A stretch of 64,000 nucleotides of DNA from an uncultured Bacteroidia bacterium (lineage in GTDB: Bacteria; Bacteroidota; Bacteroidia; Bacteroidales; Prolixibacteraceae), in assembly GCA_903905505.1 (NCBI GenBank), contig CAIVGL010000004.1, forward strand, positions 62,001 to 126,000, written 5' to 3'. The notes beneath the pieces were generated by a model. It was not told where the DNA came from. It searched no databases and was given only the letters and a program-made list of their open reading frames with translations. The translations under genes were made by a program, and so were the position numbers. Of this stretch, positions 3,555-58,080 are shown piece after piece. Every line of letters begins with the position of its first letter. Position 1 is the first letter of the stretch.

Positions 3555-4046
3555 ACTTCGGGGCTCCCTGTTTGTTTGAGCGACTAACTCTCAGTTTCAC
3601 TGAGAGTTATTTAAAATCACAGTCCTTCGGACTTTTACTCCCTTTAAACTGCAACTATTTAAAGTCATTCGGACTTTTACTCAAGTTCAACTGCGGCTAT
3701 TTAATTAATGTCCTTCAGACTTTTTCTCTAGTCAACTACAGCTATTTAAATTAAAGTCCTTCGGACTTTTTAGATGGTCGTAAAATACCGTTTTGTTTCC
3801 CAGTCGACAAACACTTTGGCAAACTAACGATCATAACAGGCATCCACATTTGAGATCTTTTAACTCCCAGTTCACTGAGAGTTAGTTGAAATCACAGTCC
3901 TTCGGACTTTTACTCCCTTTAAACTGCAACTATTTAAAGTCATTCGGACTTTTACTCAAGTTCAACTGCGGCTATTTAATTAATGTCCTTCAGACTTTTA
4001 CTATTGTTAAATGACAATCAACCAAATTAATATCCTTCGGACTTGA
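3555..4046. repeat. Tandem-duplicated 275-277 base segment made of short hairpins
   Basis: Two copies of one segment lie in the gap between the synthetase and the alcohol dehydrogenase. In both, a hairpin (CTCAGTTTCACTGAGAG at about 3590 in the first copy, a close variant at about 3866 in the second) is followed by several AGTCCTTCGGACTTTT hairpins alternating with TTTAAACTGCAACTATTT-like stretches. Matching points are 3620/3895 and 3790/4067, giving an offset of 275-277 bases. The short hairpins resemble REP-like repeats, and the same AGTCC-GGACT hairpin recurs (inverted) near 37950. No coding capacity is supported. Confidence 0.85.
3774..3832 (-). pseudogene. Remnant of the 3' end of a second glutamine-synthetase-like gene
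   Basis: Read on the minus strand, this stretch translates as FAKV-FVDWETKRYF. This is nearly the C-terminus of the intact synthetase at 4047-5396 (FAKVVTDWETKRYF), but it has an in-frame TAG where the glutamine before FAKV should be. Eighteen bases (CGTTTTGTTTCCCAGTCG) are identical to the intact gene end. It forms the upper end of the first duplicated unit. Either a whole second synthetase was deleted, leaving its tail, or only the gene end and its 3' region were duplicated. Confidence 0.75.
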
Positions 4047-54653: not shown

Positions 54654-55919
54654 CTAGAATCTAGCGTTTTTACCGCCAATATCACCATGTAAGTGGATCA
54701 AAATAAAGGCAAGAAACACCAATAATGCAACTATAAATAGGGTGTACTTCAGCCAATTTTTCGAGTCAACATTTGCTGTAGGGATTTCAACGAAAGCAGC
54801 TCTATTTTGGCGTACCAAGAGTGCAACAACGATAAAATTTAGCACATATAAGTGATGATTGAGCATAAAATTGCCTCTAAAGCCACCTGTAAGTCCATAG
54901 CTAAGGAAAATATAGGTCGCCCAATAGGCTAAAAATAGTTGTAAGATTGAACTTCTAGTTATTTCTCCATTTGACAGTACACTCTTCTTCCACCCCAAAA
55001 TTGCTAAAGCAAAAAGAAGCAGAACAGCTATCGTGCTACCGCAAAGAGAAGCGGCGGGTAAACTTTCGGCCTTAGGGGTATTAAAAAACACCTGGATCAA
55101 ATTTGAATTCGAGAAGACCATATAAGGGATCAAGAGAAACACCACAAAATAGGCGAATTTATTTTGCCATTTCTGGGGAGCTGTCGATTCCTCTGGCCAT
55201 ACTGAGCTAAACACGCCATAAGCCATCCCTGATCCACCAAAGAAGCCAATACTATACTCCATGACGTTCCACATGTTAAATTGGATGGCAAGGATGTCGC
55301 CTAAGATCTGAAGAACATTCCCAAATCCGAAGCCAAACCCTGCTCCCATTGCTGCAAAATACGCTACGCGAAGTGGTGCTTTGTGTTCGTTGCGCACCAT
55401 ATACCAGATCATTGCCAGTCCAGCACCCAAGCAAACAGCCCAAGCTTCGGAGCGCGGGGGAGTCATTAGAAAGCCAAAAGCTTGGATCAGTAAATAATAT
55501 CCTACAACACCACCTGCAACCATCTCAGCCATCAAGCTATTCCAGTACACAGGCTTTTTCTTTGAGGAATCTAAGGTTAGTCCAACAAGGCCACCCCCAA
55601 GGAGTCCAAAGAGGCCTCCAATCACAAATAGCATAACTAAGCCATAAGCGGCATTTACAAAGTCGACATTTCGACCATAGCCAACAACTATTCCGTAGCT
55701 TATCATTCCACAGCCGCCCCAGCCAACCATCGAAGCTAATGCGATAGGCAAAATCTTCGCAAACCAATCTTTTCGTTGCGCCACTAACACCAACGCTAAG
55801 GCTCCAATCCCAGCTGCCCAAGAAGCACCAGGCTCATGTCCAAATTGTCCCCGAATAGCCCAAGCAGTAGCAAAGGACATCCCGACAATTAAAATACTAA
55901 TCCATTGTTTTTTCATCAT
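54654..55919 (-). CDS. Polytopic membrane protein of unknown function
   Basis: This 421-residue protein has about 11-12 hydrophobic segments and begins MMKKQWISILIVGMSFATAW (two adjacent ATGs, 55919 and 55916). Notable conserved-looking pieces are AWAIRGQFGHEPGASWA near the first helix, the glycine-rich GGLFGLLGGGLVGL, FGFGNVLQILGD in the middle, and a charged DSKNW before the last helix. Many glycines and the paired segments suggest a transporter or channel, but I recognise no named family. It lies upstream of the SusC operon on the same strand, separated by its own terminator, and the repeat array begins about 60 bases upstream of it. Confidence 0.8.
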   Translation of the reverse strand: MMKKQWISILIVGMSFATAWAIRGQFGHEPGASWAAGIGALALVLVAQRKDWFAKILPIALASMVGWGGCGMISYGIVVGYGRNVDFVNAAYGLVMLFVIGGLFGLLGGGLVGLTLDSSKKKPVYWNSLMAEMVAGGVVGYYLLIQAFGFLMTPPRSEAWAVCLGAGLAMIWYMVRNEHKAPLRVAYFAAMGAGFGFGFGNVLQILGDILAIQFNMWNVMEYSIGFFGGSGMAYGVFSSVWPEESTAPQKWQNKFAYFVVFLLIPYMVFSNSNLIQVFFNTPKAESLPAASLCGSTIAVLLLFALAILGWKKSVLSNGEITRSSILQLFLAYWATYIFLSYGLTGGFRGNFMLNHHLYVLNFIVVALLVRQNRAAFVEIPTANVDSKNWLKYTLFIVALLVFLAFILIHLHGDIGGKNARF

Positions 55920-55981
55920 TAAAAATGTTTAGTTAGTTGTTAATCAGTTTCAAAAATAATGAAATAAGTGAGAAGAAAAAG

Positions 55982-56570
55982 AAAACGCAATAGGGCACAA
56001 TAGTTTCTAATGTGCCTTCTATGTGGCCTATGTGCCTAATGTGGTGAAAAAAGAAACACAATAGGGCACAATAGGAAAAGAAACACAATAGACACAATAG
56101 ACTCTATGTGGCCTATGTGGTAGAAAAATAAGAGAAACACAATAGACACAGTAGGACACATAGGTTTCTAATGTGCCTTCTAATGTTAACTATGTGCCTA
56201 TGTGGTGAAAAAAAAGAAACACAATAGGCACAATAGGAAAAGAAACACAATAGACACAATAGATTCCAATGTGCTTTCTATGTGGCCTATGTGCCTAGTG
56301 TGGTGAAGGAAAAGAAACACAGTAGGACACAATAGGAAAAGAAACACAATAGACACAATAGATTCTAATGTGCTTTCTATGTGGCCTATGTGCCTAGTGT
56401 GGTGAAAAAAAAGAAACACAGTAGGACACAATAGGAAAAGAAACACAATAGACACAATAGATTCTAATGTGCCTTCTAATGTTAACTATGTGCCTATGTG
56501 GTGAAAAAAAAGAAACACAGTAGGACACAATAGGAAAAGAAACACAATAGACACAATAGGACACATAGGT
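55982..56570. repeat. Repeat array, left part: about six imperfect units, settling to a 98-99 base period
   Basis: The 656-base gap between the membrane protein and the GxxExxY gene is filled by repeating units. Each unit has a first half built of CACAATAG words (ACACAATAGACACAATAG) and a second half built of CTATGTG words (CTATGTGGCCTATGTG), ending GTGGTGAAAA. The marker GTGGT occurs at 56041, 56117, 56202, 56300, 56399 and 56498, so spacing settles to 98-99 bases. The halves are imperfect reverse complements, so each unit can fold on itself. Confidence 0.9.
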
Positions 56571-56575
56571 AAAAG

Positions 56576-56989
56576 TTAGTATCCGCTAGGCAAGGAAGCA
56601 TAAAGCTCATTCACCAAAGTTTTTTGTCCTTCCTTGAATATGTTGGTGCAATTAAAATTAATCAACACTCCTTTGGGTTTGGATAGAAGATTTAGGTATG
56701 TCAATAGTTGGGCTTCATGAATTGGCATTAACCTCTCTACTGCCTTTACCTCAACAATTATCAAGTTATCGACCAATAAATCAAAACGCAGATCGCAATC
56801 TAGTTTAAGACCTCTGAAAATCAGCGGAACTCGTTGCTGAGATGAGACAAGTACCCCTTCTTCGATTAACAAATGCCCCAAGCATCTTTCATAAATACTC
56901 TCAAGCAGTCCAGGGCCCAATTCTTTATGGACTTCAATAGCTGCTCCTAGAATAACATGGGTTAAATCATTTAGATATTTCTGTGTCAT
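56576..56989 (-). CDS. GxxExxY-family protein with PD-(D/E)xK nuclease-like core
   Basis: This 137-residue protein is the full family length. GLLESIY (about 27-33) is the naming motif. Before it, HVILGAAIEVHKELGPG is typical of the family. LRFDLLVDNLIIVEVKAVE (about 68-86) has the Asp, then Glu-x-Lys arrangement of PD-(D/E)xK nucleases, and the C-terminal LLSKPKGVLINFNC is also characteristic. No function has been shown that I know of; nuclease action on the flanking repeats or on structured nucleic acid is a hypothesis. It is embedded between two halves of a repeat array that reach almost to its stop codon and to within about 15-60 bases of its start, and it lies on the same strand as the permease gene upstream. 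Confidence 0.88.
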   Translation of the reverse strand: MTQKYLNDLTHVILGAAIEVHKELGPGLLESIYERCLGHLLIEEGVLVSSQQRVPLIFRGLKLDCDLRFDLLVDNLIIVEVKAVERLMPIHEAQLLTYLNLLSKPKGVLINFNCTNIFKEGQKTLVNELYASLPSGY

Positions 56990-57002
56990 GGCTTAACAAT
57001 TT

Positions 57003-57323
57003 ACGATAATCTATTGAGGTATTGAAATAAAAGAAACAGATAGAAAAAAGAAACACATAATGACACATAGGTTTCTAATGTGCTTTTCTATTGTGATCTA
57101 TTGTGCCTATGTGGTGAAAAAAAAGAAACACAGTAGGACACAATAGGAAAAGAAACACAATAGACACAATAGATTCTATTGTGCTTTTCTATTGTGAACT
57201 ATGTGCCTATGTGGTAAAAAAAAAGAAACACAATAGGCACAATAGGAAAAGAAACACAATAGACACAATAGATTCTAATGTGCTTTCTATGTGGCCTATG
57301 TGCCTAGTGTGGTGAAAAAAAAT
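57003..57323. repeat. Repeat array, right part: about three units of about 100 bases
   Basis: The 338-base gap between the GxxExxY start and the metal permease stop carries the same units as the left part, with GTGGT markers at 57110, 57211 and 57309. Variants here use CTATTGTG in place of CTATGTG, which makes the two halves of the unit better complements. The last unit runs to within about 5 bases of the permease stop codon. Confidence 0.9.
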
Positions 57324-57327
57324 GCTT

Positions 57328-58080
57328 TTATCCTATGGGATGAATGATCCACAAGATTCCAATTGCTATCGCTAAAATAGCTCCAGTCAAAGAAAACCGC
57401 TTCAAAAATAACTCTTTGCCCCCTGCTTCGGCACGATGAGCTAAAAGACCTAACGCGAAGGCAAAAGCCATCATCGCAAAAATGGTGCCGATAGCAAAAG
57501 CGATAATATAAATAACAGACGACCAGAAACTAGGGAAGGCTAATGATGGAAGCAAAGCAAACAAATGACTAAAACCAGCTAGCCCATGAACAGTTCCAAT
57601 AAAAAATGCAGAGAATACGTTCTGATTCATATTCGTGGTGTGAGAATGGCCATGCTCATTCAAATCGCCTTCAATGGAAGGACTGGCATGTGAATGAGAG
57701 TGAACATGAGCATACAAATTAGGAGTTGCATGAAAATGAGCATGAGGACGATCGCCATGTGAATGTTTTGAATAGCCTCTTTTTAATGCCCAAATCCCAA
57801 TGCCGACTAGCAAAATCCCAATGATGGTTTCGCTATATTTTGAGATGCTGTCGATAGGTAAAAACTCTTTAAAAGCTAAAAATAGACTGCCAATTAGCAG
57901 CATTCCCACGGTATGACCGAAGCCCCAGGAAAAACCAATGACCCACGATTTCTTTCGACTATCAATCGCCAGAGGGGTAACAGCAGCAAGATGATCGGGT
58001 CCAGTGGCGACATGCGCAACACTCGCAAGAAATCCAGTTAATACAGTTAGCACTTCACTAAAATTTAGATTTATGTGCAC
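57328..58080 (-). CDS. UreH/NiCoT-like metal permease with histidine-rich loop
   Basis: This 250-residue protein has about six to seven membrane segments. The start is a GTG at 58080, because the next ATG would remove the first conserved helix (LTGFLASVAHVATGPDHLAAV). Histidine and aspartate in HVATGPDH and the second GTVHGLAGFSHL motif are the metal-path signatures of the UreH/NicO/NiCoT group. A loop at about 108-150 is crowded with histidines (KHSHGD, HAHFHA, HVHSHSHA, EHGHSH), which would bind nickel, cobalt or zinc. It probably moves such a metal across the inner membrane; direction and metal are not certain. The repeat array abuts its 3' end. Confidence 0.85.
   Translation of the reverse strand: MHINLNFSEVLTVLTGFLASVAHVATGPDHLAAVTPLAIDSRKKSWVIGFSWGFGHTVGMLLIGSLFLAFKEFLPIDSISKYSETIIGILLVGIGIWALKRGYSKHSHGDRPHAHFHATPNLYAHVHSHSHASPSIEGDLNEHGHSHTTNMNQNVFSAFFIGTVHGLAGFSHLFALLPSLAFPSFWSSVIYIIAFAIGTIFAMMAFAFALGLLAHRAEAGGKELFLKRFSLTGAILAIAIGILWIIHPIG

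Follow-up and report, generated by a model that had tools for sequence, protein, structure and literature searches.

Genes of the GxxExxY family are framed by inverted arms of short repeated DNA words, an association observed across phyla. Typically some three words make up an arm, the gene has one arm on either side, and which word is used varies with the protein. We think it probable that gene and word arms form a single element, resembling the REP/RAYT systems, in which the nuclease would recognise its own words and spread or maintain palindromes. A first-pass annotation of one such locus had suggested that a nuclease and self-complementary repeats form a selfish or self-maintaining pair; that suggestion is supported here and is general across GxxExxY loci. 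The locus lies in what we call the window, the whole stretch of 64,000 nucleotides that was analysed.

The GxxExxY gene of the window and its hairpin array

The features of the window that are referred to below are as follows.

55987..56571, no strand assigned: hairpin-unit array 3' of the GxxExxY gene, in which CACANTAG/CACATAG words face CTANTGTG/CTATGTG words with a period of about 99 nt
56576-56989, minus strand: GxxExxY gene encoding a protein of 137 aa with a predicted PD-(D/E)XK nuclease fold, from PF13366/TIGR04256 profile matches
57046..57315, no strand assigned: array of the same hairpin units 5' of the GxxExxY gene, from repeat finding and from 14-mers in common with the 3' array
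57213..57315, minus strand: one clean hairpin unit (fold z -5.8), which in the direction of the gene starts with TCACCACACTAG

The protein encoded at 56576-56989 matched PF13366 (E=1.3e-36; 125.9 bits compared to a curated cut-off of 22) and TIGR04256 (E=2.7e-37; 127.7 bits compared to a curated cut-off of 35). These matches, together with units of about 99 nt on both sides, confirm the initial description of a GxxExxY nuclease-like gene in an inverted-repeat array. Three residues of the catalytic type (D70, E80 and K82) were invariant in 68 aligned GxxExxY proteins, and by sequence the protein is assigned to the GxxExxY family with its predicted PD-(D/E)XK residues kept. The AlphaFold2 model (pLDDT 95.9, pTM 0.90) had PD-(D/E)XK nucleases as its nearest solved folds in structure comparison. 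The closest was SSO0001 (4ic1; Z 9.1, rmsd 3.7 over 100 residues), which we take to be Cas4; restriction-like 3ijm (Z 8.0) and the archaeal Hjc 1gef (Z 7.0, rmsd 3.3 over 87 residues) were also among them. The fold neighbours were mostly DNA enzymes, with tRNA-splicing endonucleases among them too. A Foldseek search with the model gave no match at E <0.001, a sequence-profile search for PDB relatives gave none at E up to 1, and a PHROGs search gave no match. Among protein families, PF13366 and TIGR04256 were the only profiles that matched the window protein, and no HUH/Y1 (IS200/IS605-like) transposase did; a Cas4 profile gave a weak match (E 2.8e-4) over 50 residues.

Among the GxxExxY orthologues of the host draft genome (G000; 2.9 Mb in 129 contigs; most likely Bacteroidota, judging from gene content and the closest protein relatives) and two sister genomes (G083 and G088), dN/dS was 0.03-0.06, by which measure the protein appears to be under strong purifying selection. 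Stop codons were found inside 13 of the 80 matched GxxExxY stretches (best 80 of 563 loci) and lie within the domain in at least L136, L140, L177 and L186, as expected of an element that also decays. We know of no role for this family, which is widespread and often multi-copy. The gene was present in 120 of the 140 genomes of the host's family at 1-17 copies each; the window gene was the sole GxxExxY gene found in G000, several contigs of which end inside arrays. The element was found in 7 of 72,556 plasmid records and in none of the 50,697 phage records searched.

Tandem Repeats Finder reported two tracts of period 99, one at 56146-56559 (4.2 copies, score 666) and the other, across the gene, at 57046-57322 (2.8 copies, score 427). 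The array had been described as about nine units, a count that stands when partial units are included, but the 78-nt core is present in only seven full copies, five on the 3' side and two on the 5' side, in addition to truncated units. The word CACANTAG occurred 48 times in the window, 45 of these inside 55982-57323, compared to 5.7 (sd 2.2, max 12) in 100 dinucleotide shuffles, and the word pair CACANTAGNCACANTAG occurred 10 times in the window and in none of the shuffles. As had been proposed, the units fold as hairpins. Folded as single-stranded DNA, the clean unit gave z scores of -5.8 and -5.5 for its two strands and a second unit, in the 3' array, gave -3.5. The TCACCACACTAG start of the clean unit is the ACC-word end seen at other GxxExxY elements. 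The repeats were said to reach to about 5 bases of the neighboring stop codons. At two ends the repeats, with their A-run, do come to within about 5 nt of a stop codon, that of the GxxExxY gene (56576) and that of the upstream gene (57328). The far end of the array, however, is about 65 nt from a start codon (55919) and not beside a stop codon. An Rfam scan of 55900-57400 returned 12 matches, all far below the gathering score. Elsewhere in the window, at 3621-3979, there are tandem repeats of 42-46 nt (AGTCCTTCGGACTTTTACTCAAGTTCAACTGC...) that by eye are unrelated to the array words.

Inverted word arms at GxxExxY genes

Named loci were taken from a profile scan of genome contigs with an alignment of 11 GxxExxY proteins, as the best 80 of at least 563 confirmed candidates. 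Their flanks repeatedly showed one layout, in which the gene is closely preceded by about three 7-nt words and closely followed by the reverse complement; at many loci no more than tens of bases separate arm and gene. In the word-class scan we counted pairs of C[AG]C[AG]NAG (CRCRNAG) at 0-3 nt distance, a class picked after repeat words near some GxxExxY genes had been noticed. In the best 80 of 563 loci, the density of these pairs was 4.76/kb up to 250 nt from the gene, where 53 of the 80 loci had a pair, and 0.24, 0.14, 0.19, 0.15 and 0.09/kb in bins out to 10 kb, the last value being that for 4-10 kb from the gene. The reversed-pattern control gave 0.20/kb near the gene and 0.01-0.04/kb farther out (0.02/kb at 4-10 kb), and four rearranged control patterns gave 0-0.07/kb. 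For the same 80 loci, a CRCRNAG pair was present in 63 of 119 gene-adjacent intergenic gaps, compared to 34 of 471 other gaps, and word pairs were present in both inverted arms of 34 of the 80 GxxExxY genes, compared to 2 of 743 other ORFs.

A motif-free test, which scores the best local match between the 250 nt upstream and the reverse complement of the 250 nt downstream, gave a median of 37.5 at 76 GxxExxY loci (best 80 of 563, with four dropped for short flanks). Random 400-nt blocks from these loci had a median of 18 (n=606, max 30), as did partners taken from other loci (n=1507), and 57 of the 76 genes had inverted arms that scored above the 99th percentile of the random blocks. Direct matches of the two flanks were also raised, with a score of at least 34 in 19 of the 76 loci, because some loci hold whole palindromes on each side. 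The score exceeded 28 for 31 of 743 other ORFs at the named loci. In a second set of 45 loci, four of which were left out because a flank was short or the frame could not be located, 24 of the remaining 41 scored above 28, compared to 4 of 234 blocks (99th percentile 36, max 51). Three of the 41 (L270-L272, all above 28) came from the genomes of L193, L198 and L201, outside the host's family, and L270 and L271 are the same places as L201 and L193. A third set yielded 24 of 40 loci from 12 genomes, compared to 3 of 320 blocks; six of these 40 loci were also in the second set. Flanking repeats had been predicted at other GxxExxY genes. Long 99-nt arrays are not the rule there, but inverted word arms were found in all three sets (57/76, 24/41 and 24/40). 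The first-pass annotation missed that the long array is a local expansion; it would be a tandem, BIME-like expansion of the flanking palindromes.

The window's own words were tried as a general mark and rejected, since 30 GxxExxY loci gave only stray single words, and exact 8-mer recurrence in gaps was not significant (at least 0.2 in 2 of 61 adjacent and 7 of 450 other gaps). Both searches were blind because the word is short and varies between members. Four loci had repeat-rich gaps that do not adjoin the gene. Those of L130, L135 and L150 (two of three L150 gaps) were rejected as unrelated repeats, and that of L204 is a tandem repeat holding a class word, CTCCGCG. In L382, L385 and L388 the GxxExxY genes are framed by GTCTGAATC-AGGAT-..AGGAT, outside the CRCRNAG class.

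The words of the two arms of a locus agreed at 6.44 of 7 positions, compared to 5.52 (sd 0.09) for re-dealt arms (0 of 5000), in the 42 of 80 loci (best 80 of 563) with at least two words in each arm. The spacing of word starts was mostly 8, 9 or 10 nt (61, 66 and 24 intervals, respectively). Arms tend to be T-rich and then to have AC before the first word (A in 67 of 85 and C in 55 of 85), so that the usual arm end is ...ACC ACNNAG. Where a locus had both a word pair and an upstream ORF on the same strand (28 loci), the first word started about 12 nt (median) beyond the stop codon of that ORF, with one outlier at 892.

The dominant word was placed on a protein tree of 81 rows, in which 39 of 78 inner branches are open. 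It changed 29 times over the 71 labelled rows, compared to 50.7 (sd 1.6) with shuffled labels (0 of 300), and the T words (CACATAG, CACANTAG, CATTAAG and CACTAAG; 20 rows) were separated from the rest (51 rows) by two changes. The word list was compiled after the arms had been read; the tree fit is a test and the labelled share is none. The labelled loci span ten named phyla of bacteria, together with one bacterium left unassigned and one contig from an archaeon; many of the loci are metagenome bins, for which single assignments may be wrong. Within Bacteroidota only, T words were found in 18 of 19 labelled loci of the window's clade and in none of 14 of the other (8 unlabelled). These sequence comparisons indicate that word type goes with protein clade rather than with host. 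Pairs of CACANTAG were found in only two loci (L130 and L136) of the best 80 of 563, and both have Bacteroidales proteins, 77% and 72% identical to that of the window.

In multi-copy genomes the examined GxxExxY copies (the best-scoring copies listed) were 33-69% identical, mostly with their own words. Cross-arm scores were 36.4 for 20 pairs from different genomes with more than 75% protein identity, compared to 18-23 below that level. Pairs from the same genome scored like others of equal protein identity up to 0.55; at 0.55-0.65 the scores were 21.5 for the same genome and 19.9 for others (n=14), and at 0.65-0.75 they were 28.5 and 22.9 (n=2). Arm similarity appears to depend on protein identity more than on shared genome. 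Word pairs far from the gene were slightly closer to the resident arms of their own contig (5.93 of 7) than to those of other contigs (5.59; 1 of 5000, 29 loci), a likeness that base composition can account for in part. The L198 contig holds 25 more CACAGAG words away from the gene but within 20 kb; they are arranged in pairs and match the resident arms. In G006, none of the four examined gene copies, out of seven, had CACATAG, the word of nearly all of its listed palindromes.

Element ends, dispersed palindromes and gene-less arrays

Flanks were compared in 341 pairs of loci that share a homologous gene block; a few of these pairs represent one place twice. Homologous flanks on both sides were found in 67 pairs. 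Five pairs had no flank homology and a block that extended at least 45 nt upstream and at least 30 nt downstream of the gene, and all five of these blocks terminate at word arms. The block of L359 with L365 and with L377 (L365 and L377 being at one site) runs from TAACCACNGAG to CTCTGTGGT; that of L086 with L364 from ACCGCAGAG to CTCTGCGGT; that of L083 with L097 from TAACCGCAGAG to a word-GGT or word-GTT end; and that of L074 with L089 from a CTCTGT word to CTCTGTGGTT. GxxExxY elements are found, then, as a conserved unit with sharp ends in unrelated flanks. The arm of L359, the only arm folded alone, gave no hairpin (z +2.2).

The trpE-trpG junction was inspected in 30 loci from 40 genomes of the family of L198, a betaproteobacterium. 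The element was present in two loci (L276 and L277), a gene-less, decayed word hairpin in one (L281), and trpE was followed directly by trpG in seven; 14 showed no trpE end in the 230 nt before trpG and six had no readable start. No target-site duplication was seen by eye at the five-block or trpE-trpG junctions, where there was no near-identical empty site. The junction after trpE is occupied in L193, L198 and L201. Since L193, presumably from a betaproteobacterium, carries another word and is not closely grouped with L198 and L201 on the protein tree, the trpE-trpG site may have been hit more than once. There were no near-identical gene copies within one genome (maximum 69% protein identity in 52 pairs of the best-scoring copies listed), which argues that full-length elements are not multiplying like young IS.

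Gene-less word palindromes are dispersed in genomes. In the 140 genomes of the host's family, CRCRNAGNCRCRNAG occurred 2538 times, compared to 399 for the reversed control. The median number of word pairs per genome was 12.5 in the 120 genomes with the gene and 2 in the 20 without it (p 2e-5, ignoring relatedness), and word pairs correlated with gene number (Spearman 0.42, ignoring relatedness; the control value of 0.12 was not significant). Three of the 20 gene-less genomes (G049, G076 and G103) had 23-50 word pairs, and 15 of the 120 genomes with the gene held two or fewer. Twenty palindromes were picked for facing pairs with a 1-nt spacer, a choice that makes their palindrome form and outer spacer no test; they were mostly AACCACATAGnCACATAGnnCACATAG, a short A/T loop and CTATGTGnnCTATGTGnCTATGTGGTT, or close to this, and the inner spacer was 2 nt in 27 of their 28 word triplets.

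A pattern search of G000 found gene-less arrays at C4:146-149k, C97:39.5k and C11:64.7k, and arrays at the ends of contigs C1, C11, C79, C80 and C129. Two gene-less places (three arrays) were inspected with their neighbors and lie between ordinary genes. Repeats that are common at sites without the gene had been put forward as evidence against a link between the two; they are indeed common in G000, yet they are also expected of gene-less satellites. G083 and G088 have the GxxExxY gene at the same place with the same neighbors as G000, and several other arrays are at sites common to two or three of these genomes, which suggests long residence. At one shared site the word number was 33 in G000, 40 in G083 and 18 in G088. 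In G000 an amidohydrolase gene (PF04909) lies between two arrays (L032 2958-5339) where G088 has one array and no gene (L341 1289-1482), and G083 retains a match to the amidohydrolase gene region. From the shared sites, the change in unit number and the amidohydrolase difference, it appears that arrays persist, grow, shrink and join in gene gain and loss.

The proposed exchange between copies fits the two sides of the window gene, where 125 of the 195 distinct 14-mers of the smaller side were common to both in G000 (80 of 159 in G083 and 31 of 106 in G088), but it does not extend to the genome as a whole. Arrays at different sites shared 14-mers to nearly the same degree within one genome (0.15) as between genomes (0.13), so that concerted evolution of all arrays in one genome was rejected; arrays at the same site in different genomes gave 0.30. 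Palindromes may frame cargo other than GxxExxY. At L219 (G088:C36) 2294-2841 a two-gene module, by eye an antitoxin and a RelE-like toxin, lies between repeats, and the repeat words around it resemble those of the second GxxExxY gene of G088.

Possible modes of action and closest known systems

We propose that the element consists of ACC and about three direct words of 7-8 nt, the GxxExxY nuclease gene and the reverse complement of the first arm. The nuclease would recognise its own word type in cis at the ends of the element and the same word in trans at gene-less palindromes, where cutting of the DNA might allow palindromes to be copied to new intergenic sites or to be kept in place. In the window, the flanking palindromes would have been amplified in tandem to give hairpin units of about 99 nt. 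Association of gene and arms across phyla, co-variation of arm with arm and of arm with protein, block ends, dispersed palindromes, changes in unit number and purifying selection on the protein are observed; binding and cutting of the words by the nuclease, and copying and movement of the palindromes, are what we infer. Several results speak against the proposal: the three gene-less genomes rich in word pairs, the 15 genomes that have the gene and few pairs, the G006 copies lacking CACATAG, the arrays at shared sites, the lack of near-identical gene copies, the scarcity on plasmids and absence of phage matches, and the lack of any visible target-site duplication or movement. With few plasmid matches, no phage matches and no young duplicates, the element seems by analogy to resemble a resident rather than an IS-like element.

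Other explanations account for parts of these results. One that we regard as possible, though doubtful, is that the nuclease cuts palindromes or cruciforms and that repair from another copy spreads units and keeps the gene without transposition, the arrays being points of recombination. This would suit the Cas4-like and Holliday-junction-resolvase-like fold neighbors, the units common to both sides of the gene, the varying unit numbers at fixed sites and the single array of G088 where G000 has array, gene and array. Homing alone leaves the blocks in unrelated flanks and the many dispersed single palindromes unexplained, and the arrays of a single genome show no homogenisation (0.15 between different sites, compared to 0.13 between genomes). 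It is unlikely that the words are simply sites through which the protein controls its own operon, with the gene-less palindromes as further sites of a regulon and no mobility. Direct words at a spacing of 8-10 nt do resemble protein sites, the protein is under strong purifying selection and many loci have their arms no more than tens of bases from the gene, but the arms flank the gene on both sides in inverted order, the element recurs as one block in unrelated flanks, palindromes are dispersed, tandem arrays vary in unit number at the same site and PD-(D/E)XK is a nuclease fold.

We give very little credence to the idea that the palindromes belong to some other system, as common REP- or MITE-like repeats, and that GxxExxY genes are carried in intergenic repeats by chance. 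Although gene-less repeats are common in G000 and three gene-less genomes are rich in word pairs, chance carriage is at odds with the excess of inverted word pairs on both sides of GxxExxY genes (34 of the best 80 of 563, compared to 2 of 743 other ORFs) and with a word that tracks the protein clade within one phylum. Action at the level of RNA, in which the 5' and 3' arms of a transcript pair and the protein processes a structured array RNA, is equally improbable. Complementarity of the arms across the gene and good folding of the units as single strands (with DNA parameters) speak for it; no Rfam family reached the gathering score in 55900-57400, the fold neighbors are mostly DNA enzymes, though tRNA-splicing endonucleases are also present, and the word itself is conserved within an arm beyond what pairing requires, which points to sequence recognition.

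Returning to the nuclease-and-palindrome element that we favor, we lean, with some reserve, towards the broader view that GxxExxY, its arms and its palindromes are a second, independent REP-type system. It would depend on a PD-(D/E)XK nuclease acting alone, each member of which recognises its own word, would extend over ten or more bacterial phyla and one archaeal contig, and would have given rise to a large class of palindromes scattered between genes (CACAGAG, CACGGAG, CACATAG, CATTAAG and similar). Because the partner word is largely predictable from the protein clade, each GxxExxY gene predicts its own DNA target. If the proposal is true, it would give an origin for many short intergenic palindromes of Bacteroidota and other phyla, and the REP life style would have arisen with two unrelated nucleases. 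In the literature covered, which took in few subscription papers and no preprints, GxxExxY was met only in passing, PF13366 appeared in one paper and no description of the word-arm system was found; the repeat strings appeared there only in fish eDNA work.

The closest known systems are those of the REP-associated tyrosine transposases (RAYT or TnpA-REP; REPtrons, REPINs), for which the available parts of the sources describe inverted framing, a protein and a repeat that co-evolve, gene abundance that correlates with repeat abundance, and BIME arrays (PMC2817692; PMC3733652), and domestication of the RAYTs from transposases (PMC8266576). Compared with that partial account, GxxExxY likewise has a small nuclease gene between two inverted repeats (in 57/76, 24/41 and 24/40 loci), a protein and a repeat word that co-vary, dispersed gene-less palindromes with tandem BIME-like arrays, and a gene whose presence correlates with word-pair abundance, with the exceptions noted and ignoring relatedness. 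The differences are in the enzyme, which is PD-(D/E)XK rather than an HUH/Y1 tyrosine transposase, in the arm, which is a row of direct 7-8 nt words pairing with the other arm, and in the ends, which tend to ACC...GGT in contrast to the GTAG-tagged REP palindrome. TIRYTs, described in the text available as tyrosine transposases between unrelated TIRs (PMC3733652), share with GxxExxY the short nuclease element, terminal inverted repeats and repeated TIR families (as TIRtrons); their enzyme is HUH, and the available parts of PMC3733652 describe no word-triplet design. MITEs also are gene-less short elements with the terminal inverted repeats of an autonomous partner, but here the partner would be a PD-(D/E)XK nuclease and no target-site duplication was seen. 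Rpn/YhgA-like proteins and TnsA are PD-(D/E)XK nucleases tied to recombination or transposition, and we know of no word-arm organisation for them. Cas4 and Hjc-type PD-(D/E)XK nucleases are the nearest solved folds to GxxExxY, which had no PDB relative by sequence profile. The GxxExxY system is outside the REP/RAYT family, since both the enzyme and the design of the repeat differ. Its organisation is already known from REP/RAYT; if the enzyme defines the kind, the GxxExxY system is a new kind.
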